Shown here piece after piece: positions 10,080 to 36,116 of a DNA stretch of 36,116 nt. The notes beneath the pieces are model-generated. The model was not told where the DNA came from and made no database searches. It worked only from the letters and a program-made list of their open reading frames with translations. The stretch lies in the NCBI GenBank assembly GCA_020725765.1, contig DYEI01000505.1, positions 1 through 36,116 of the forward strand, in the 5' to 3' direction. Origin of the DNA: Anaerolinea sp. Its GTDB lineage: Bacteria > Chloroflexota > Anaerolineae > SpSt-313. Positions within the stretch are counted from its first letter, which is position 1; every line of letters starts with the position of its first letter. A program made the translations under genes and the position numbers.

Positions 10080-11306
10080 TCAGGCCTCCGCCTCGTCATG
10101 CGGCTGCGTTGCCTCGGCGAGGGAACGCCGGACTTCACGGGCGAATCTCGCCCCGAACTCGCGCGCCTTCGCCAGCTCCTCGGGGGTCGGCGCCCAGCGC
10201 ACGGCGAGGTCTGCGCTCATCACCTCAAGACCCGCCCTGCGCAGCGCCTCTTCCAGATCGGGCACGGCCCCGCCCGCCCAACCGTGCGAGCCAAAGGCCG
10301 CCCCGATCTTGCCGGTGAAGCGCAGGCCCTTGAGATCCTCCACAAAGGCGGCGACGTTCAGCAGCATCCCCTGATTGTGCGTGGCAGAGCCGAGGAGCAG
10401 TCCCTTGGCCTCCAACAGCTCGCCGAACACATCGGTGTGATCGGCCATGGGCAGGCCGCGCAAGAGCACCTCTACACCCTCCGACATCGCACCCTCGGCC
10501 AGCGCCTCCGCGAGTTGCTCCGTCGAGCCCCACATCGTCTCATAGACGATCACAACCCGCTCCCGTGCCTCGCCGGACGCCCAGCGCCGGTACGCCTCCA
10601 CGATCTGGCCGGGGTTCTCTCGCCAGATCACTCCATGGCTCGGCGCGATGGTCGCGATCTCGATGCCCATGCGCGCCACCTCATCGAGCTTGCGGAGCAC
10701 CATTCGGCTGAAGGGGGTGAGGATGTTGGCGTAGTAGCGGGTTGCCTCCTGCCAGAGCTGGCAGGAATCGACCTCGTCGGCAAAGCGCTGCGAGGTCGCA
10801 AGGTGCTGGCCAAAGGCATCATTGGGCAGGAGGAGCCGGTCCTCGGCGACGTAGGTGAACATGCTGTCGGGCCAGTGAAGCATCGGCGCCTCGATGAAGC
10901 GGAGCGTCTTTTTCCCCAGCGTCAGGGTATCGCCGGTAGCGACGCTTCGGAGCTCTGGCAGATCAAAGTACTTGCCGAGGCTGTCAAGCCCCTTTCGGCT
11001 GCAGAGCACCTCCGCCTCGGGTGCGTGCTCGAGCACGGCAGGGATCGCGCCGGAGTGATCGATCTCGCCGTGATTGGCGATCAGGTAGCGGATGCGGGCC
11101 GGGTCGACGACCTCGGCGATCCGCGAGAGCATCTCCTCCTCAAAGCCCGGCGCCACGGTGTCGACGAGGGCGACGTTGTCATCGAGGATGAGGTAGGCGT
11201 TGTAGGTCGTGCCCCGGGGTGTGGTGTAGGTATAGCCGTGGAAGTCCCGCCTGTTCCAGTCGATCGCTCCCACCCAGTAGACGTTCTCAGCAACCTGCAC
11301 CGGCAT
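10080..11306 (-). CDS. A-type flavoprotein / flavodiiron protein (beta-lactamase-fold diiron domain plus flavodoxin domain)
   Basis: NHGEIDHSGAIP diiron motif, MLHWPDSMFTY, ETMWGSTEQLAEALAEG flavodoxin loop. ATG at 11306 fits the family N-terminus (ORF track extends to 11501). Confidence 0.94.
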   Translation of the reverse strand: MPVQVAENVYWVGAIDWNRRDFHGYTYTTPRGTTYNAYLILDDNVALVDTVAPGFEEEMLSRIAEVVDPARIRYLIANHGEIDHSGAIPAVLEHAPEAEVLCSRKGLDSLGKYFDLPELRSVATGDTLTLGKKTLRFIEAPMLHWPDSMFTYVAEDRLLLPNDAFGQHLATSQRFADEVDSCQLWQEATRYYANILTPFSRMVLRKLDEVARMGIEIATIAPSHGVIWRENPGQIVEAYRRWASGEARERVVIVYETMWGSTEQLAEALAEGAMSEGVEVLLRGLPMADHTDVFGELLEAKGLLLGSATHNQGMLLNVAAFVEDLKGLRFTGKIGAAFGSHGWAGGAVPDLEEALRRAGLEVMSADLAVRWAPTPEELAKAREFGARFAREVRRSLAEATQPHDEAEA

Positions 11307-11532
11307 CGTAGCGTGCTCCTTCCTCTTAGAGCGCAGTCGGTCTGCGCGGCTCAAGGCTAGAGTATAGTCGCAATCCGCGCCCCAGTCCACGACAAATGTC
11401 GTCAGAGGTTGCGCCGTAAGATTCGGGGCAGGGCGAGTCCAGACGCCGCGGCGGTGCGCCACGGGCGCGTCGCCACCCATCTCTCGTCGCCCGTGTAGCA
11501 CACCTCACCCCGCAAGGGCGACGTGTCCGCCT

Positions 11533-14532: not shown

Positions 14533-16332
14533 CTACTCCGCTTTTTGTGCGCACGTTGTCATATGCGTCGCTAGCATGGCCCAGTTCAGGATGTCACTGA
14601 TTTCCTGGTGCACCTGCACCTCCCCGCGCCGGACTCGCATCCCAGCCTCCATGTACCTCGACTTCGAACTCGCTGAGAGCCCAAAGTACTGCTCTATCTC
14701 TCCATCCCTGAGGACCCAGACGTCCGCCTCCTGCTGCAATCGGCCTATGATGGCCTGTGCTGGGGTCCCAAGTTCACTGCACACCAGCGCGAAAGCGGCT
14801 TCCTTGTTGTCCACAACCCTGCCTTTCTTCTTGTCCTCTCTCGCAATGCCCAAGTCGAGTGCACGGGACCAGAACGACTGGCAGAATTGGCTGAGCTCGC
14901 TGTCGGCGCCCAGGCATCGACCGGCACCGTCCCACAGGAAGTCTAGATCGACCATGCCGCAGGCATTTATTCCCATCCTCTGAAGATAGGTGATCCATAC
15001 GGGCACAACTGCCTTGCTGCCTGCTTCGATAACACCTAGAACCAGTGGCCCTCTGGTGGCGCACATAGAGTCGCGCAGGATGCTCCAGGCAGCCTCCAGC
15101 AGCACGCGGTCGGATGTCCCTTCTACCACCATCACGCAGTCCGCGAAGAGGAACTCGGCACTGCTGGCGAATTCCAGGAGCTTGATCAGTTGCTTGTCGT
15201 TCTCGTCACCGAAGGAGTTGGGCTGGGGCCAATGGCACATCGTGCAGGGCGAAGCATCAGTGGCGACCTGATGCTGCCGCACAACAACAACGTCATCGAT
15301 GTGGCGCGGAGTCACTAGCAGCGGTGAATGAGTGGCGATAACCACCTGGTTGCTCTGCGATATCTTCTCAAGCGCGGTGCCCATCTCTCTCTGCAGAGCT
15401 GGATGCAGGAATGCCTCCGGTTCCTCCACCAAGACAACAAAAGGTCTGTGCAGCTCTGCATCAGTTGACTCCCTGAGTTCCTCAGCAAGTGCCTGGAGAA
15501 GGGCCACGTACAAGGCTCGCTGGACGCCCTGGCCCTTGAGCGAAGGCGATGTCCAGGCACCCCAGTCTCTCAGTTCGATGTGTGCAGTACCTATGAAGTC
15601 AGATACGGTGGGCAGGGTGAAGCGCACGCGCACGTCAGTTCCTTCGAAGACGCTGCGCACATGTCTCCCTATGCGCTGCTCGACGCGCCGCAGTTCCTCG
15701 GGCCTCTCATCGACTGTGCGGCCATCCTCCTCGAGCGTATTGAACTTACGCTGAGCAATGGCGAGCGCCCGTTGTACATCTCCCGCGACCTGGGTCGATA
15801 TCCCTTCCATGTTGTGCTTGAGTAGTTTGCCAAACGTCGCGCTGGTCTTTGCTGACGCTTCTTCTGACGGGTCCTTGAACGCCTCGATGAAGATGACCTC
15901 TGGAAGCAACTGCTTTAGCGCACTATCTATTCCTGTGGGAAGAGTAAACTCCTCCCGCTCTGGATCCCATAGGTGGATCGCCTCAAAGGCAAGGGGATCG
16001 CGATAGGCCCTTTTCCTGACGCGCAACTGATCATCGCGGATGCAGTTTGCTATCTTGGTTCGATGGCGGTCGGCACACAAGGGCAGATACTGTTGCACTC
16101 CCGCGACCACCGCTTCGATTTCGAACTCGCCGGCCTGAGTACTCTTGCTCCAGTGAAAATCGGCAGGCGAGATATCTCTGGTGGACCCCTCAAGGAGCAA
16201 GCTGATAGCCCTCAGAATGTTGGATTTGCCAGCATTGTTGCGCCCGATGAGTATGCAGAGGCTGTGAAGCTCAAGACGTACGTCGCTGAGCGACCGGAAG
16301 CCCCTCACCCTGAGTTCGGTGATCTTCATCAT
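14533..16332 (-). CDS. OLD-family ATP-dependent nuclease (ABC-type ATPase plus TOPRIM)
   Basis: ITELRVRGFRSLSDVRLEL, Walker A GRNNAGKSN, VVLVEEPEAFLHP Walker B, VIATHSPLL; TOPRIM-like VMVVEGTSDRVLLEA and GMVDLDFLWDG. Confidence 0.9.
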   Translation of the reverse strand: MMKITELRVRGFRSLSDVRLELHSLCILIGRNNAGKSNILRAISLLLEGSTRDISPADFHWSKSTQAGEFEIEAVVAGVQQYLPLCADRHRTKIANCIRDDQLRVRKRAYRDPLAFEAIHLWDPEREEFTLPTGIDSALKQLLPEVIFIEAFKDPSEEASAKTSATFGKLLKHNMEGISTQVAGDVQRALAIAQRKFNTLEEDGRTVDERPEELRRVEQRIGRHVRSVFEGTDVRVRFTLPTVSDFIGTAHIELRDWGAWTSPSLKGQGVQRALYVALLQALAEELRESTDAELHRPFVVLVEEPEAFLHPALQREMGTALEKISQSNQVVIATHSPLLVTPRHIDDVVVVRQHQVATDASPCTMCHWPQPNSFGDENDKQLIKLLEFASSAEFLFADCVMVVEGTSDRVLLEAAWSILRDSMCATRGPLVLGVIEAGSKAVVPVWITYLQRMGINACGMVDLDFLWDGAGRCLGADSELSQFCQSFWSRALDLGIAREDKKKGRVVDNKEAAFALVCSELGTPAQAIIGRLQQEADVWVLRDGEIEQYFGLSASSKSRYMEAGMRVRRGEVQVHQEISDILNWAMLATHMTTCAQKAE

Positions 16333-16595
16333 CAGCTGCCTCCAGGGCCTATCTGAGGTGTTGATGACGCGATCTGCCTGCGAGACCAAGCATCAGTCGC
16401 GCACCGCAAGGCATCGGTCCCTAACCCAGCATAGAAGCATGTGAGTGCTCTGGGCGAGCAGGCGGCTCCTGCAGCACTTGTGTTTCGTCTGCTCCTGACA
16501 GAATGGAGAATGCATACGGAGGAGAGGGACCCAATTGAAAGCGTCTCTTCGAGGCGCTCGCGAGGGGGCGCGAGGATGGGCACAGGGTCGCTCAT
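16332..16595 (-). CDS. possible 87-aa upstream/leader ORF coupled to the OLD gene (coding status uncertain)
   Basis: ATG at 16595 follows agggaggtcgtgtcac (Shine-Dalgarno-like). Its TGA overlaps the OLD ATG by one base (TGATG). The protein sequence itself looks unremarkable. Confidence 0.35.
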   Translation of the reverse strand: MSDPVPILAPPRERLEETLSIGSLSSVCILHSVRSRRNTSAAGAACSPRALTCFYAGLGTDALRCATDAWSRRQIASSTPQIGPGGS

Positions 16596-19140: not shown

Positions 19141-19229
19141 GTCATTGCGAGCCAGCCCGAAGGGCTCGCGAGGCAATCTCGCCACCCGCGCGCGAGATTG
19201 CTTCGGCGGCTGCGCCGCCTCGCAATGAC
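19141..19229. repeat. GTCATTGCGAG...CTCGCAATGAC palindromic repeat
   Basis: Perfect 11-nt terminal inverted repeats and internal gcaatctcg/cgagattgc pairing. Confidence 0.92.
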
Positions 19230-19238
19230 GCGCGAGTG

Positions 19239-19290
19239 CCATTGCGAGCCAGCCCGAAGGGCTGGCGAAGCAATCTCGCCCCCGCGCGCC
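19239..19290. repeat. half-copy of the CATTGCGAG repeat
   Basis: ccattgcgagccagcccgaagggctggcgaagcaatctcgcccccgcgcgcc repeats the first half of 19141-19229. Confidence 0.85.
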
Positions 19291-29521: not shown

Positions 29522-30130
29522 ATGCGCGACTATGAGGTCGAAGAGTACGAGCAGTGGGAGGAAGGTTACCTCGAAGGCGATGACGGGAGCATGGAGGAGA
29601 CCTATCTGTACGACCCCGACGAGGGGTTCACCGACGAGGACCTGCTCTTCGCCGAGAACGCCTTCTCCCCCCACATGATCGGCCGCCCCGCACCGCAGGA
29701 TGGGCTCGAAGAGCCGGACGTGCCTCCAGAAGACGTCGAGAGCGACGAGCCGACCACCGATCCCTATGCAGCCATCGACGAGGGAAGGATTTACTATCCG
29801 CCCGAAGATCCACCAATCCTCCCCTCGGAGCGACTGCGGGATGCCGACATCGCTATCGGCTTTGCCTCCTCAGCCGACGATGCTCCACTCGAGGTCGAGG
29901 ACGTCCCCGAGCGGTTCGACAGCTCTGACTATGACATCGCCGAGCGCGTTGCCGAGGCGCTGCGCCTGCACTCTGCCACCTCCGACCTCGACATCAGAGT
30001 TCAGGTGCAGGATGGCGTCGTCACGCTGCGCGGGCACGTGAACACCCTGCAGGACGTGGCCGCCGTCGAGGACATTGCCTCCGAGGTCGAGGGTGTGGTC
30101 GAGGTGCGGGAGCAACTGACGCTCGACTGA
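29522..30130 (+). CDS. BON-domain protein with long acidic N-terminal region
   Basis: IAERVAEALRLHSATSDLDIRVQVQDGVVTLRGHVNTLQDVAAVEDIASEVEGVVEVREQLTLD is a typical BON domain. Confidence 0.88.
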   Translation: MRDYEVEEYEQWEEGYLEGDDGSMEETYLYDPDEGFTDEDLLFAENAFSPHMIGRPAPQDGLEEPDVPPEDVESDEPTTDPYAAIDEGRIYYPPEDPPILPSERLRDADIAIGFASSADDAPLEVEDVPERFDSSDYDIAERVAEALRLHSATSDLDIRVQVQDGVVTLRGHVNTLQDVAAVEDIASEVEGVVEVREQLTLD

Positions 30131-30163: not shown

Positions 30164-30607
30164 ATGGCACCACGGGGGACGATCGTGGTCGACGGGTCCA
30201 ACGTGGCGTGCGAGGAGCAGACACACGACGGCAAGCCCCGCATCGAGAACATCGAGTTGGCGCTCGAGACCCTGCGCAAGCAGTACGAGCACGTCATTGT
30301 GATCGTGGACGCCGCGCTGCACCACAATATTGACAGGCCTCGCGAGATGCGCCGGCTGCTGGACGATCAGATCATCCGGCAGGCGCCGGCGGAGACGCCC
30401 GCCGACTATTTCATCTTGGAGATGGCGGATGCTCTGGGCGCCGACGTGCTCTCCAATGACCGGTTCAGGCAGTACCATCGGCGATGGCCATGGATCGAGC
30501 ACCGGCGCATACCCTTCATGATCATCGATGGCCGGCTCATCATCTACCGTCCGGCCCAGGTTGAGAGCCGGCTATCGCAGAAGGAGGGCAGGAAAGCCCA
30601 CTCCTGA
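30164..30607 (+). CDS. NYN/PIN-like ribonuclease (Zc3h12a-like NYN)
   Basis: TIVVDGSNVACE, VIVIVDAALHH, PADYFILEMADALGADVLSNDRFRQYHRRWPWI. Confidence 0.83.
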   Translation: MAPRGTIVVDGSNVACEEQTHDGKPRIENIELALETLRKQYEHVIVIVDAALHHNIDRPREMRRLLDDQIIRQAPAETPADYFILEMADALGADVLSNDRFRQYHRRWPWIEHRRIPFMIIDGRLIIYRPAQVESRLSQKEGRKAHS

Positions 30608-30711: not shown

Positions 30712-31113
30712 GTGGCGTGGCACGTCTACGACATCGAGTTCGACGGGTTTGAGCGGCTCACAGGCGGCAACTATCACGTCGCCCGCTTTACTGTTGTCAA
30801 GGATGGCGGGGTGCGCACCTGGCAGGTGCGGGTGAGGGTCAAGCCATCCCTCCGCCAGGCCCTTGGCGACCGGGTGAGCCAGTATGATGACCGCGACCTC
30901 GCCGGAGGTCTGGGGGCTCAGACTATCCTCAAGCTCCTGGAGAGCGGGCTGGAGGTCTTTGAGCAGGATATCATCCTCGACGCCAGCCACTACCCGGGCC
31001 GTCCTGGAGAGCCGGCCGTCTTTCCCGACTACCGGCATCTGACCGTCCGGGTGGAGACGACTCCGGAGGGTGAGGTCGTGCCGCCCCTTGCCGTCTCCAC
31101 TGCCCCGCGGTGA
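30712..31113 (+). CDS. hypothetical protein
   Basis: 133-aa ORF with GTG start, in the plus-strand gene train; MAWHVYDIEFDGFERLTGGNYHVARFTVVKDG. No family recognised. Confidence 0.6.
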   Translation: MAWHVYDIEFDGFERLTGGNYHVARFTVVKDGGVRTWQVRVRVKPSLRQALGDRVSQYDDRDLAGGLGAQTILKLLESGLEVFEQDIILDASHYPGRPGEPAVFPDYRHLTVRVETTPEGEVVPPLAVSTAPR

Positions 31114-31223
31114 CGGCTTGGAGGGTCGGGCATGACCCGGTGCGGGCCAGCGCCGCGGGGGCGTTCCGGATGCCTGCCGCCTGGCCGTTTCCGGGAGCGA
31201 TACCCTTGCGAGAGGAGATTGAT

Positions 31224-32372
31224 TTGCGCGGGTTCAGCATTGGCCGCATAGCGGGTATTCGGATCCGAATCGACTGGAGCTGGCTCATCATCTTCCTGCT
31301 GGTCGCCTGGACGCTGGCGGTGGGCTACTTTCCGGCCCTCTTTCCCACCTTTTCCACGGCCGTGAACTGGGTGCTGGGGATCGTGTCCAGCTTTTTGCTC
31401 TTCGCCTCGGTGCTCGCCCATGAGCTGGCGCACTCCTTCGTCGCCCGGAGCCAGGGCCTGCCGGTGGAGAGCATCACCCTGTTCATTTTTGGTGGCGTGT
31501 CGGAGATCGAGGAGGAACCGCGTACCGCCGGCGACGAGTTCCGCATGGCCTTCGTGGGGCCGCTGACCAGCCTGGGCCTCGCGGGCATCTTCTGGCTGAT
31601 CTTTCTGGCCACCGGCCCCAACGCGAGCCCCCTGGCCGCCGTGGTGCAGTACCTGGCGGTCATCAACCTCGCCCTCGGCCTCTTCAACCTCGTGCCAGGG
31701 TTTCCGCTGGACGGCGGGAGGGTGCTGCGGGCCATCCTGTGGGCAATCACCGACAACCTCCGCCGGGCGACGCGCATCGCCTCCTACGTCGGGCAGGGCT
31801 TTGCCTTCTTCCTGATCTTTGTGGGCGTGGCCCTGATCTTTGGCGGAGCCTTTATCAGCGGCATCTGGCTCGCGTTCATCGGGTGGTTCCTGAACAACGC
31901 GGCCAGTGCGAGCTACCGGGAGCTGGTGGTGCGCCAGTCTCTGGAGGGGGTGCCGGTGCGCCGGCTGATGGCTACCGATGTCGATCGCGTGCCGCCGTCG
32001 CTCACCGTCCAGCAGGTGATCGACCAGTACATCCTCTCGGGCCGCCAACACGCCTACCCCGTTCAGACCGACGGCGAGCTGGTCGGCCTGATCTGCCTGC
32101 ACGACGTGCGCAGCGTGCCCGAGGACGCGCGCACGACGACGACGGTAGCCGAGGCGATGACCCCCTACGACCGTCTGGTCACGAGCACGCCCGATGAGGA
32201 CCTGGCTTCCGCCGTCGACAAGCTGGGGCGCGGCGGCTATGAGCAACTCCCCGTGCTCGACGCGCCCCATCACCTCGCCGGCCTTCTGCGGCGGCGGGAC
32301 GTGATCAACTACCTCCAGGTGCAATCCGATCTTGAGGGGACCGGGAGCCGCGGCGGCGAGGGCGAACAGTAG
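31224..32372 (+). CDS. site-2-protease (M50) membrane metalloprotease with tandem CBS domains
   Basis: LAHELAHSFVARSQG (HExxH), NLVPGFPLDGGRVLRA, CBS repeats MATDVDRVPPSLTVQQ and AMTPYDRLVTSTPDEDL. TTG start after gaggagattga; GTG at 31110 (GTGA overlap) is an alternative. Confidence 0.92.
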   Translation: MRGFSIGRIAGIRIRIDWSWLIIFLLVAWTLAVGYFPALFPTFSTAVNWVLGIVSSFLLFASVLAHELAHSFVARSQGLPVESITLFIFGGVSEIEEEPRTAGDEFRMAFVGPLTSLGLAGIFWLIFLATGPNASPLAAVVQYLAVINLALGLFNLVPGFPLDGGRVLRAILWAITDNLRRATRIASYVGQGFAFFLIFVGVALIFGGAFISGIWLAFIGWFLNNAASASYRELVVRQSLEGVPVRRLMATDVDRVPPSLTVQQVIDQYILSGRQHAYPVQTDGELVGLICLHDVRSVPEDARTTTTVAEAMTPYDRLVTSTPDEDLASAVDKLGRGGYEQLPVLDAPHHLAGLLRRRDVINYLQVQSDLEGTGSRGGEGEQ

Positions 32373-32439
32373 CTGGCGCTCGACTCCGCCCGGCCTGGGT
32401 ACGAGCCAGGATCAGGCAATCTCTTGGATTGGGAGAGCG

Positions 32440-34377
32440 ATGACGCAGAGCGAGCATTCGAGAGGAGTGTGCCACCGCGGCGCGGCGTTCAGGCCAGCGC
32501 CTGAGGGCACCTGGGTAAGCCGCAGAGCCCGGGCTTTGCTGCTCATCGCCTCGGTGCTGCTGGTGCTCGCGGCCGGCAGCTGTGCGGAAGGCACCAGCAT
32601 GGACCCTGAGGCTGTCCGCATCCCCTACTCCGAGTTCCGTGTGCAGCTGGAGGCAGGCAATGTCGCACGGATTGTGGCTCGGGGCAGCGAGATCCGTGGC
32701 GAACTCGAGTCGCCTGCCCAGACGATTGGGGGGACCAATGGGGCACTCGTGGACTATCGCAGGTTCGTCACGCACCGCCCGCCCTTTGAGGACCCGGAGC
32801 TGTATGCCCTGCTCCGTCGCCACAACGTCGAGCTGGACGTGCAGCAGGCAACCGACCTGAGCGGGGCCTGGACCGTGCTGTTGAACCTGCTGCCCATCCT
32901 GCTTCTCCTGGCGATCGGCTTTGCCCTCGCGCGCAGCATGCGAGGCCAGGGGCACACCCTGACCGATTTCGGCCGCAGCGGCGCCAAACTGTACCGCAAA
33001 GAGCCCGCGACCGCGGTGACCTTTGACGACGTCGCCGGAGCAGAGGGCGCCAAGGCGGAGCTGCAGGAGGTGATCGAGTTCCTGCGAAACCCCGCCAAGT
33101 TCCGTCGCCTCGGGGCGACCATGCCCAAGGGCATCCTGCTGGTCGGGGCGCCCGGCACGGGCAAGACGCTTCTCGCCCGCGCCGTCGCCGGCGAGGCAGG
33201 AGTCCCCTTCTACAGCATCACCGGATCCGACTTTATGGAGATGTTCGTGGGCGTCGGCGCGAGCCGCGTGCGCGACCTGTTTGCGGAGGCCAAGCGCACA
33301 CAGCCCAGCATCGTCTTTGTCGACGAGCTGGATAGCATCGGCCGACTGCGCGGGGCCGGCATCGGCGGGGGACACGACGAGCGCGAGCAGACGCTCAACC
33401 AGCTCCTCAGCGAGCTGGATGGCTTTGAGCGAAACGAGGGCGTGATCGTCCTCGCCGCCACCAACCGGCCCGATATCCTCGACCCCGCTCTGCTCCGCCC
33501 CGGACGCTTTGACCGACGGGTGACCGTCGACCTGCCCACGACCAGTCAGCGCGTCGCCATCCTGCGCGTCCATAGCCGCAACAAACCCCTCGCACCGGAC
33601 GTCGACCTCGAAGAGCTCGCGCGCAGCACGCCGGGGTTCTCAGGCGCGGACCTGGAGAACCTGCTCAACGAGGCCGCGCTGAACGCCGCGCGGGAAGGCA
33701 AGTCCGCCATCGACCGCTCCGACGTCGAGGACGCCCGAGACAAGGTCCTCATGGGCCTCAAGCGAGAGGGCATGGCCATCGGCGACGAGGAGAAGCAGCT
33801 CCTCGCCTACCATGAGGGCGGGCATGCGCTGGTCGCCATGCGCCTGCCGAGGGCCGACCCCATCCACAAGGTGACGATCGTACCCCGAGGGCGGGCCATG
33901 GGCATCACCCAGCAGTTGCCCGAGGGCGAGATACACGTCTACCCGCAGGACTATATGGCCGACCGCCTCGCCGTGCTCCTTGCCGGCCGGGCCAGCGAGA
34001 CCCTGGTCTTTGGCACGAGGACTTCAGGGGCGGAGGCGGACCTGCGGGAGGCAACCATGATCGCACACCGCATGGTGTCGAGCTGGGGTATGGGCCTCGA
34101 CCTCGGCCCGGTCAGCTTTGACACGGAGGGCGGGAGCGTGTTCCTGGGCGAGGACCTCGGCCGGCCCCGGCCCTACAGTGAGGAGACGGCCAGCCTCATC
34201 GACCGGGAAGTGCAGCGCCTCCTGAGCGAGAGCCTGGAAAGGGCGCGCACCATCCTCGAGCAGGACCGCCCGGCCCTCGTTGCCATCGCCACTGCCCTCG
34301 CAGAGAAGGAAGAGCTCACCGGTGAGGAGGTCAGGGAGATCGTCGAGCGTGCCAGTCAGCATGTGCCGGCGGGATAG
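32440..34377 (+). CDS. ftsH: FtsH-family membrane AAA+ zinc metalloprotease (divergent paralog)
   Basis: [96 protein letters not shown]. Confidence 0.96.
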
Positions 34378-34488
34378 CCCCTGGCCACGTCCCGCACCGG
34401 CGCGTGATGCCCGCTACACTGTAGCAGGAATGAGAGATCACGACGTTAGCCCCACAATGCCAGCAACGGAGGAAAGGAGAACACCGCA

Positions 34489-34881
34489 GTGCCAACCGAT
34501 CCCTTTACCGGCCTCGTGCCGCGCAAGATGACGGCCAGTGAGCTGGCCCGCGCCATCCGCCTGGACATCCAGGCGGAGCTGGACGCCACCAACCTGTACC
34601 AGGCGCACATCGACGCGACCGATGACGAGCGCGCTAAGGCCATCCTCGCCCACATTCGCGACGAGGAGAAGGAGCACGCCGCCGAGTTCGTCGAGCTGCT
34701 CAAGCTTCTCGACCCGGACCAGGCCACCTATCTCGATGAGGCGCCCGGGGATGTAGCGCAGATCATCCGGGAGGCCCGCGGCGCGGCCGCCGGGCAGGGC
34801 ACGGGTGGACCCGAGGGGCGCCTCACGGTCGGGAGCTTGCTCGGCCGGCCCCAGGGTGAGATGGAGGAGGGCTATGCCTGA
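34489..34881 (+). CDS. encapsulated ferritin-like protein (EncFtn) with encapsulin cargo-loading peptide
   Basis: DIQAELDATNLYQAHIDATDDERAKAILAHIRDEEKEHAAEFVELL matches the EncFtn helix pair with ExxH; C-terminal LTVGSLLGRPQ matches an encapsulin targeting peptide. Confidence 0.93.
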   Translation: MPTDPFTGLVPRKMTASELARAIRLDIQAELDATNLYQAHIDATDDERAKAILAHIRDEEKEHAAEFVELLKLLDPDQATYLDEAPGDVAQIIREARGAAAGQGTGGPEGRLTVGSLLGRPQGEMEEGYA

Positions 34882-35716
34882 TTACCTGCTTAGGGACCAG
34901 GCGCCCCTCACCGAGCAGGAGTGGGGCCTCCTCGACGACGTCATAGTCCGCGTCGCCAGAAGGCAGCTTGTGGCCCGGCGTTTCCTCTCCATTGCCGGGC
35001 CGGTCGGCGCCGGCGTGCAGAGCTATCCGTCGGACCGCTACGGCGACGGCGCGGCCCAGATCAGCCTCTTCGGAGCAGAGGAAACAGGGAGGGTTCGCGT
35101 CCAGCGCCGGACCTTTGTGCCCCTGCCCATCCTGTGTCAGGATTTCACGATCAACTGGCGAGACCTCGAGAGCGCCCGCCGGTTGGGGGTGCCGCTCGAC
35201 ACGACCGCCTCCGCCATCGCCGCGGCGGCCGTCGCGACGATGGAGGACAGGCTCATCTTCGGTGGCCTTGACGAGATGCAGCAGCAAGGCCTTCTGAACG
35301 CCGAAGGCCGCCAGCAGTTGCCCCTGGGCGACTGGGCCACGACCGGTGGCGGCTTTGCCGCCATCGTGAGCGCGGCGGAGGCCCTCGTTGCCGCCGGGTT
35401 CGGCCAGCCGTTCACAGTGGTGCTCCCGCCCGCGCTCTACGCCAGGCTCAACCGCGTGTACGACAACACCGGCGTGCTCGAGCTCGATCAGGTGCGGCGG
35501 CTGGTTCGTGGGGGCGTGTACGTCACACCGGCACTGCCGCCAGGCGTGGCGGTCGTGCTGGCGCCCGGGCCCGAGAACCTGGACATCCTGATCGCGCTGG
35601 ATCTGACCGTCGCCTTCCTGGAGACGACCTCGATGGAGCATCACTTCCGGGTGTTGGAGGTCCTGAGCCCGCGGGTCAAGCGGCCCGAGGCGGTTGTGAC
35701 TCTGGGGCAGGTATAG
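34874..35716 (+). CDS. family 1 encapsulin nanocompartment shell protein
   Basis: APLTEQEWGLLDDVIVRVARRQLVARRFLSIAGPVGAG and FTINWRDLESARRLGVPLDTTASAIAAAAVATMEDRLIFGG align by eye with T. maritima encapsulin. ATG overlaps the EncFtn stop by 8 nt. Confidence 0.95.
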   Translation: MPDYLLRDQAPLTEQEWGLLDDVIVRVARRQLVARRFLSIAGPVGAGVQSYPSDRYGDGAAQISLFGAEETGRVRVQRRTFVPLPILCQDFTINWRDLESARRLGVPLDTTASAIAAAAVATMEDRLIFGGLDEMQQQGLLNAEGRQQLPLGDWATTGGGFAAIVSAAEALVAAGFGQPFTVVLPPALYARLNRVYDNTGVLELDQVRRLVRGGVYVTPALPPGVAVVLAPGPENLDILIALDLTVAFLETTSMEHHFRVLEVLSPRVKRPEAVVTLGQV

Positions 35717-35825
35717 TGCCAGCACCGGGGCACGAGCCTGTCCTGTCACAGCGAGCGCCCCGGGCTGGACCTCTGTGCGAAGTGGGGAGACTCGCCAGGC
35801 GGCAGCAGTCTGTGAGCAGTCGGCC

Positions 35826-35899
35826 CGACCGCCGAGGCAATCTCACCGGCGCGCAGGTGGGATTGCTTCGCCAGCCCGGCGGGCTGGCTCGCCGTGACA
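35826..35899. repeat. diverged copy of the CATTGCGAG-type repeat
   Basis: gccgaggcaatctcaccggcgcgcaggtgggattgcttcgccagcccggcgggctggctcgccgtgac. Confidence 0.82.
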
Positions 35900-35994
35900 G
35901 AAACAGCCTCCCCCAGCCGTGACTCCTTCAGGGGCGCATAGGCTGCCCTGGCCGCCTTACGTCGGCCCTTATCGAGGGTACCCCATCCCCCCGT

Positions 35995-36030
35995 CCCTCT
36001 TCCCCGCCGCCGAGGCGCCGGGGAAGAGGG
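35995..36030. repeat. strong inverted repeat (16-nt arms, one mismatch, 4-nt loop)
   Basis: ccctcttccccgccgc-cgag-gcgccggggaagaggg. Confidence 0.9.
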
Positions 36031-36039
36031 CGTCTTATG

Positions 36040-36116
36040 GAGGGCCATTCCGGATTCCCCCCCCCGCGGCGCGCTATCCATTACCCACAAGTCGGGCTGC
36101 ACAGCATCACGGGGCA
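36040..36116 (-). repeat. intergenic repeat family copy C (runs off the window end)
   Basis: Reverse complement tgccccgtgatgctgtgcagcccgacttgtgggtaatggatagcgcgccgcgggggggggaatcc. Confidence 0.85.

Follow-up and report, generated by a model that had tools for sequence, protein, structure and literature searches.

A probable two-gene iron encapsulin operon in Anaerolinea and an encapsulin-type tail on a scaffold-like viral protein

Encapsulins descend from phage capsids, and how they gained cargo loading is an open question. Of the described systems, the closest to the locus reported here is that of Myxococcus xanthus, in which the shell protein EncA is accompanied by the cargo proteins EncB and EncC; EncA forms a T=3 cage of ~32 nm and T=1 shells as well. 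Shells of the same long type are found in Dendrosporobacter quercicolus (9i8e) and Quasibacillus thermotolerans (6nj8, T=4), the latter with IMEF as its cargo. More distant is the Thermotoga maritima encapsulin, a T=1 shell of HK97 fold whose EncFtn-type cargo ends in the loading peptide LGIRK.

We analyzed a window of 36,116 nucleotides (positions 1-36,116 of contig DYEI01000505.1, Anaerolinea sp., assembly GCA_020725765.1), toward whose 3′ end an EncFtn gene runs into an encapsulin shell gene (Table 1). We read the pair as a two-gene family 1 operon of the EncA/EncC kind, which would form a cage, load it with EncFtn by means of an LTVGSL peptide and store iron, and assign this reading a probability of roughly 0.93. 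It shares with M. xanthus a shell 45% identical over its full length, an EncC-like cargo, the LTVGSL peptide and a Trp-Arg motif in the shell. Unlike in M. xanthus, a single EncFtn gene lies directly before the shell gene and overlaps it by 8 nt, 13 residues follow the loading peptide, and no EncB-type second cargo was found in the draft genome.

Table 1. Features of the operon region, its upstream neighbors and one viral comparison locus. Positions refer to the window unless a viral contig is named.
Feature	Position	Strand	Basis or remark
BON-domain protein	29522..30130	+	PF04972, 55.9 bits; synteny
NYN-domain ribonuclease-like protein	30164..30607	+	PF11977, 65.7 bits; synteny
133-aa protein, family unknown	30712..31113	+	conserved neighbor by synteny
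M50 site-2-type protease with CBS domains	31110..32372	+	PF02163, PF00571; synteny
FtsH metalloprotease	32332..34377	+	TIGR01241, 749 bits (cut-off 600); true start perhaps 3′ of the listed TTG
EncFtn Shine-Dalgarno region, GGAGGAAAGGAG	34468..34479	+	direct reading; 9 nt 5′ of GTG; identical in sister species
EncFtn-type encapsulated ferritin-like cargo, 130 aa	34489..34881	+	GTG start; TGA 34879-34881
Glu30, ferroxidase ligand (R. rubrum EncFtn Glu32)	34576..34578	+	alignment, invariant in 11/11; role from PMC11202242
Tyr37, conserved Tyr by ferroxidase center (R. rubrum Tyr39)	34597..34599	+	alignment, invariant in 11/11
Glu60 and His63, ferroxidase ligands (R. rubrum Glu62, His65)	34666..34677	+	alignment, invariant in 11/11
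LTVGSL cargo-loading peptide, then 13-residue tail LGRPQGEMEEGYA	34822..34839	+	identical to M. xanthus EncC peptide
Shell Shine-Dalgarno region, GGAGGAGGG, within EncFtn frame	34863..34871	+	direct reading; identical in sister species
8-nt overlap of EncFtn and shell frames	34874..34881	+	exact; kept in sister species, not in related genus
Family 1 encapsulin shell, EncA type, 280 aa	34874..35716	+	ATG start; TAG 35714-35716
Arg35, cargo-peptide binding residue (K. pneumoniae Arg34)	34976..34978	+	invariant in 35/35 encapsulins; role from PMC10960027
Trp95-Arg96	35156..35161	+	Arg96, not Trp95, in T. maritima flavin-Trp column
Asp243, cargo-peptide binding residue (K. pneumoniae Asp229)	35600..35602	+	invariant in 35/35 encapsulins; role from PMC10960027
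Scaffold-like viral ORF	L083:2097-2462
Viral capsid gene	L083:2977-3861

The EncFtn cargo and its shell

The two open reading frames described in an earlier note on this DNA are both in place, and curated models confirm its assignment of them to an EncFtn cargo and a family 1 shell. In the profile search that note had called for, the cargo passes NF058679 (EncB_fam, NCBIfam; 122 bits, cut-off 90); it also passes the Pfam EncFtn-like model (44 bits, cut-off 27) and scores 94.7 bits on the older TIGR04535, under that model's cut-off of 125. Its nearest relative in the PDB is M. xanthus EncC (7s8t, E = 5.5e-32; 61% identity over 115 aligned residues), and since its N-terminus, TDPFTGLVPRKMT, aligns with that of EncC, we favor the GTG start. 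The Glu, Glu and His of the ferroxidase center and the nearby Tyr that mark EncFtn proteins are all present; mutants show that Glu32, Glu62 and His65 matter in R. rubrum EncFtn (PMC11202242). The R. rubrum entry-site residue Glu31 is replaced by Ala here, as in several other family members.

The EncFtn C-terminus reads RLTVGSL, the same as in EncC, so the cargo peptide proposed in the earlier note is indeed there. The defining arrangement of family 1, a cargo with a C-terminal targeting peptide, is thus found in an adjoining and overlapping gene. No further LTVGSL-type loading peptide lies in frame near the end of an ORF in the draft genome; two other matches to the pattern were discarded, one being out of frame and the other inside a membrane protein.

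The shell protein scores 255.6 bits on the family 1 equivalog model NF041155 (cut-off 100) and 233 bits on PF04454 (cut-off 24.3). M. xanthus EncA is its closest solved relative (E = 2.3e-75, 45% identity), whereas the T. maritima encapsulin, to which it had been compared previously, is only 25% identical and proved to be the wrong reference. The absence of a predicted HK97 fold had been named as grounds for rejecting the shell assignment; an AlphaFold model built from an alignment of 30 sequences (pLDDT 82.6) instead found EncA (8vjo) as its best PDB match, with a TM-score of 0.92. The EncA T=3 subunits matched the model at 0.91-0.93 versus 0.78 for T=1 T. maritima (7kq5), and the D. quercicolus and Q. 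thermotolerans shells, 39-42% identical, at 0.90-0.94. A T=3-like shell is therefore most likely by likeness to EncA, although similarity does not settle the T number.

Both residues known to hold the cargo peptide are retained in the shell as Arg35 and Asp243, and loss of their K. pneumoniae counterparts, Arg34 and Asp229, almost abolishes loading (PMC10960027). A third residue of the T=1 peptide site, Asp38, is Ser39 here, a further difference from M. xanthus; Asp38 is mostly dispensable in K. pneumoniae. Gene identity, docking residues and the predicted fold thus support the nanocompartment that had been proposed for this organism. We envisage that the shell protein would self-assemble, giving an icosahedral cage that is most probably T=3 and, as for M. 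xanthus EncA, ~32 nm across, and that EncFtn would form a decamer with di-iron ferroxidase centers at its subunit interfaces. The LTVGSL tail would draw EncFtn into the growing cage by settling in a cleft of the shell, bounded by its N-terminal helix and the P-domain sheet, where Arg35 and Asp243 would grip it, and Fe2+ entering the cage could then be oxidized and laid down as a mineral core for storage. With docking and ferroxidase residues intact, the pair offers a usable and simple two-gene system.

Expression signals, gene neighborhood and distribution

The 8-nt overlap between the two frames is exact, as reported before, and in the sister species Anaerolineae bacterium HOT.MB2.62 it is kept together with both ribosome-binding sites. 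Its interpretation as a functional feature did not hold, since it is limited to the genus: in the related genus the EncFtn and shell genes are 193 nt apart, which rules out translational coupling as a trait conserved beyond the genus, and EncFtn there has a 4-nt overlap with ftsH, its upstream neighbor. Gaps of 2-181 nt occur in ~25 other members of the class. Coupling is possible in this organism but unneeded, because the shell gene has a strong Shine-Dalgarno sequence of its own. A palindrome 5′ of EncFtn, GCTACACTGTAGC, considered as an operator, is absent from the sister species and was set aside, and scans of positions 34300-36116 for sigma-70 promoters and terminators gave no match.

The gene order BON protein, NYN nuclease, 133-aa protein, M50/CBS protease, FtsH, EncFtn and shell is the same in three genomes and spans two genera of one family; L043 is among the loci that carry the upstream block, and EncFtn and shell remain adjacent in G029 and G063. 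The EncFtn and shell proteins are 98% and 93% identical to those of the sister species and 69% and 62% identical to those of the second genus. This recurrence, together with the E-values, excludes chance as the source of the pairing. Immediately 3′ of the shell gene the contig stops inside a dispersed repeat (35790-35950), which probably broke the assembly at this point; the repeat recurs at 19141-19287, and ~40 further partial copies occur in the genome, many of them at contig ends. Elsewhere in the window, a gene on the reverse strand at 14533-16389 encodes a nuclease-like protein of the OLD family (PADLOC Old, 333.7 bits) and is a possible anti-phage gene. Another, at 10080-11501 on the same strand, encodes a flavodiiron-type protein with ODP beta-lactamase-like and flavodoxin domains, a pair typical of oxygen or NO detoxification.

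Encapsulin-like proteins are encoded in 47 of 298 genomes of the class. A tandem ferritin ending in a TVGSL-type sequence is the cargo encoded upstream at most of the class loci examined (for example L005-L028; solved relative, 9viw), in agreement with what Andreas and Giessen predicted in 2021 as Bfr-type cargo in Chloroflexi (PMC8346489). These encapsulins resemble the present one in shell sequence (~35-46% identity) and in having a cargo gene upstream that encodes a C-terminal TVGSL-type peptide; they differ in the cargo itself, a protein of ~300-350 aa with two four-helix bundles. Phylogenetically, the shell falls together with EncA and with three EncFtn systems from other classes of the phylum (support 87/59), a grouping with EncA that is absent from a larger tree. 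We considered and rejected a cargo swap within the class, as the shells of EncFtn and tandem-ferritin systems separate in the tree, albeit weakly (44/54).

This organism may keep its iron chiefly in the encapsulin, since the other ferritin-superfamily matches in its 570-contig genome are rubrerythrin-like proteins only; no other ferritin, Bfr or Dps was found, an absence that in a draft genome is not final. A BFD-type ferredoxin domain occurs elsewhere in the genome, within a 592-aa open frame.

Alternative readings of the operon

The earlier note had drawn attention to a Trp in the motif TINWRDLE as lying near the T. maritima flavin site, and a flavin Trp occurs in ~35% of ferritin-type encapsulins (PMC8610991). 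The shell might accordingly be a flavoprotein like the T. maritima encapsulin, with Trp95 stacking FMN and aiding iron release. The Trp is real but sits one column before the flavin position: after checking the T. maritima sequence against its PDB chain, we obtained two independent alignments, in both of which W87 (W90 in the numbering of LaFrance et al., PMC8610991) pairs with Arg96. The place of the aromatic residue, number 87 in T. maritima (90 in the tagged numbering), is hence taken by an Arg here, and this column holds Arg, Lys, Asp or Glu in every other encapsulin compared. Trp95 itself is common to EncA and many relatives, and EncA has the identical Trp-Arg pair in a system where flavin is supplied by the encapsulated reductase EncD (PMC11202242). 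With Arg in the flavin-Trp column, flavin binding is unsupported, and we regard it as improbable. Still harder to credit is that the 280-aa protein is a prophage major capsid protein and forms no cellular shell. Encapsulins and phage capsids share the HK97 fold, and NF041155 is not decisive by itself, as it also accepts the capsid proteins of L083 and L166, discussed below. Against this, the shell gene comes with an EncFtn cargo that bears a loading peptide, its neighbors are housekeeping genes, the genes scanned in the window include no portal, terminase, capsid protease or tail gene, and a comparison with 50,697 phage records yielded no match to the protein.

A stronger competitor, which we nonetheless consider unlikely, concerns function: the compartment would protect against oxidative stress, not store iron in bulk, and would belong with the FtsH and M50 proteases to one stress operon. 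The conservation of FtsH, M50 protease, BON protein and nuclease upstream in two genera, with ftsH overlapping EncFtn in one of them, fits such a role, and a role as secondary stores induced by stress has been suggested for the EncFtn systems of M. xanthus (PMC11202242). The linkage to FtsH is confined to the family, however, with none at the other encapsulin loci examined, and the lack of a second ferritin in the draft genome favors a primary store. We therefore retain iron storage as the preferred reading. As such, the operon is a clean EncA/EncC-type iron encapsulin for a Chloroflexota-type family; it is of a known kind and changes no view alone.

A scaffold-like viral protein with an encapsulin-type tail

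Weightier than the operon itself is a comparison with viruses. In a search of viral contigs for proteins related to the shell (for which an alignment of 12 shells proved too varied), one group of nine IMG/VR contigs stood out (L179-L187, for example IMGVR_UViG_3300035099_000591), which are close relatives and count as a single group. Each encodes a coiled-coil protein of 113-123 aa with the C-terminal sequence LTVG[CD]L[FY]HK. Its gene is placed between those for the capsid protease and the cement protein and ends 442-520 nt 5′ of the capsid gene, a position that, together with the coiled coil, suggests a scaffold-like protein. Genes for a capsid protease (DUF2213), cement protein, terminase, portal and tail proteins on representative contigs identify the group as tailed viruses.

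The capsid proteins of the group are of encapsulin type. Two that we tested (L083:2977-3858 and L166:5001-5882) score 195-196 bits on NF041155, against a cut-off of 100, so annotation pipelines would call them encapsulins, and for the L083 capsid EncA is the closest PDB entry (E = 1.5e-55). The equivalents of Arg34 and Asp229 are kept in all seven group capsids aligned; among 27 other related viral capsid proteins, the Arg is kept in none and the Asp in eight. We examined 298 ORFs lying 5′ of encapsulin-like viral capsid genes for TVGxL-like tails and dismissed a widespread enrichment (3 found versus 2.6 expected); the complete motif was confined to the L083 group.

An encapsulin-type tail on a scaffold-like protein, combined with capsids that keep the Arg and Asp, suggests that the cargo-loading peptide may be a domesticated scaffold-docking tail of viral origin, older than the encapsulins themselves. 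We advance this tentatively, at somewhat less than even odds; the converse, in which a virus captured a shell together with its tag, appears less likely. If true, a scaffold with an encapsulin-type tail would provide a direct and testable answer on the origin of cargo loading. Viruses and encapsulins are also the subject of a 2025 preprint by Aguilar et al. (bioRxiv 10.1101/2025.06.18.659913), as cited in PMC13185644. In our own tree, which the present sampling does not allow us to root, the viral group is intermediate, with the encapsulins on one side (100/97) and the remaining viruses on the other (100/100).
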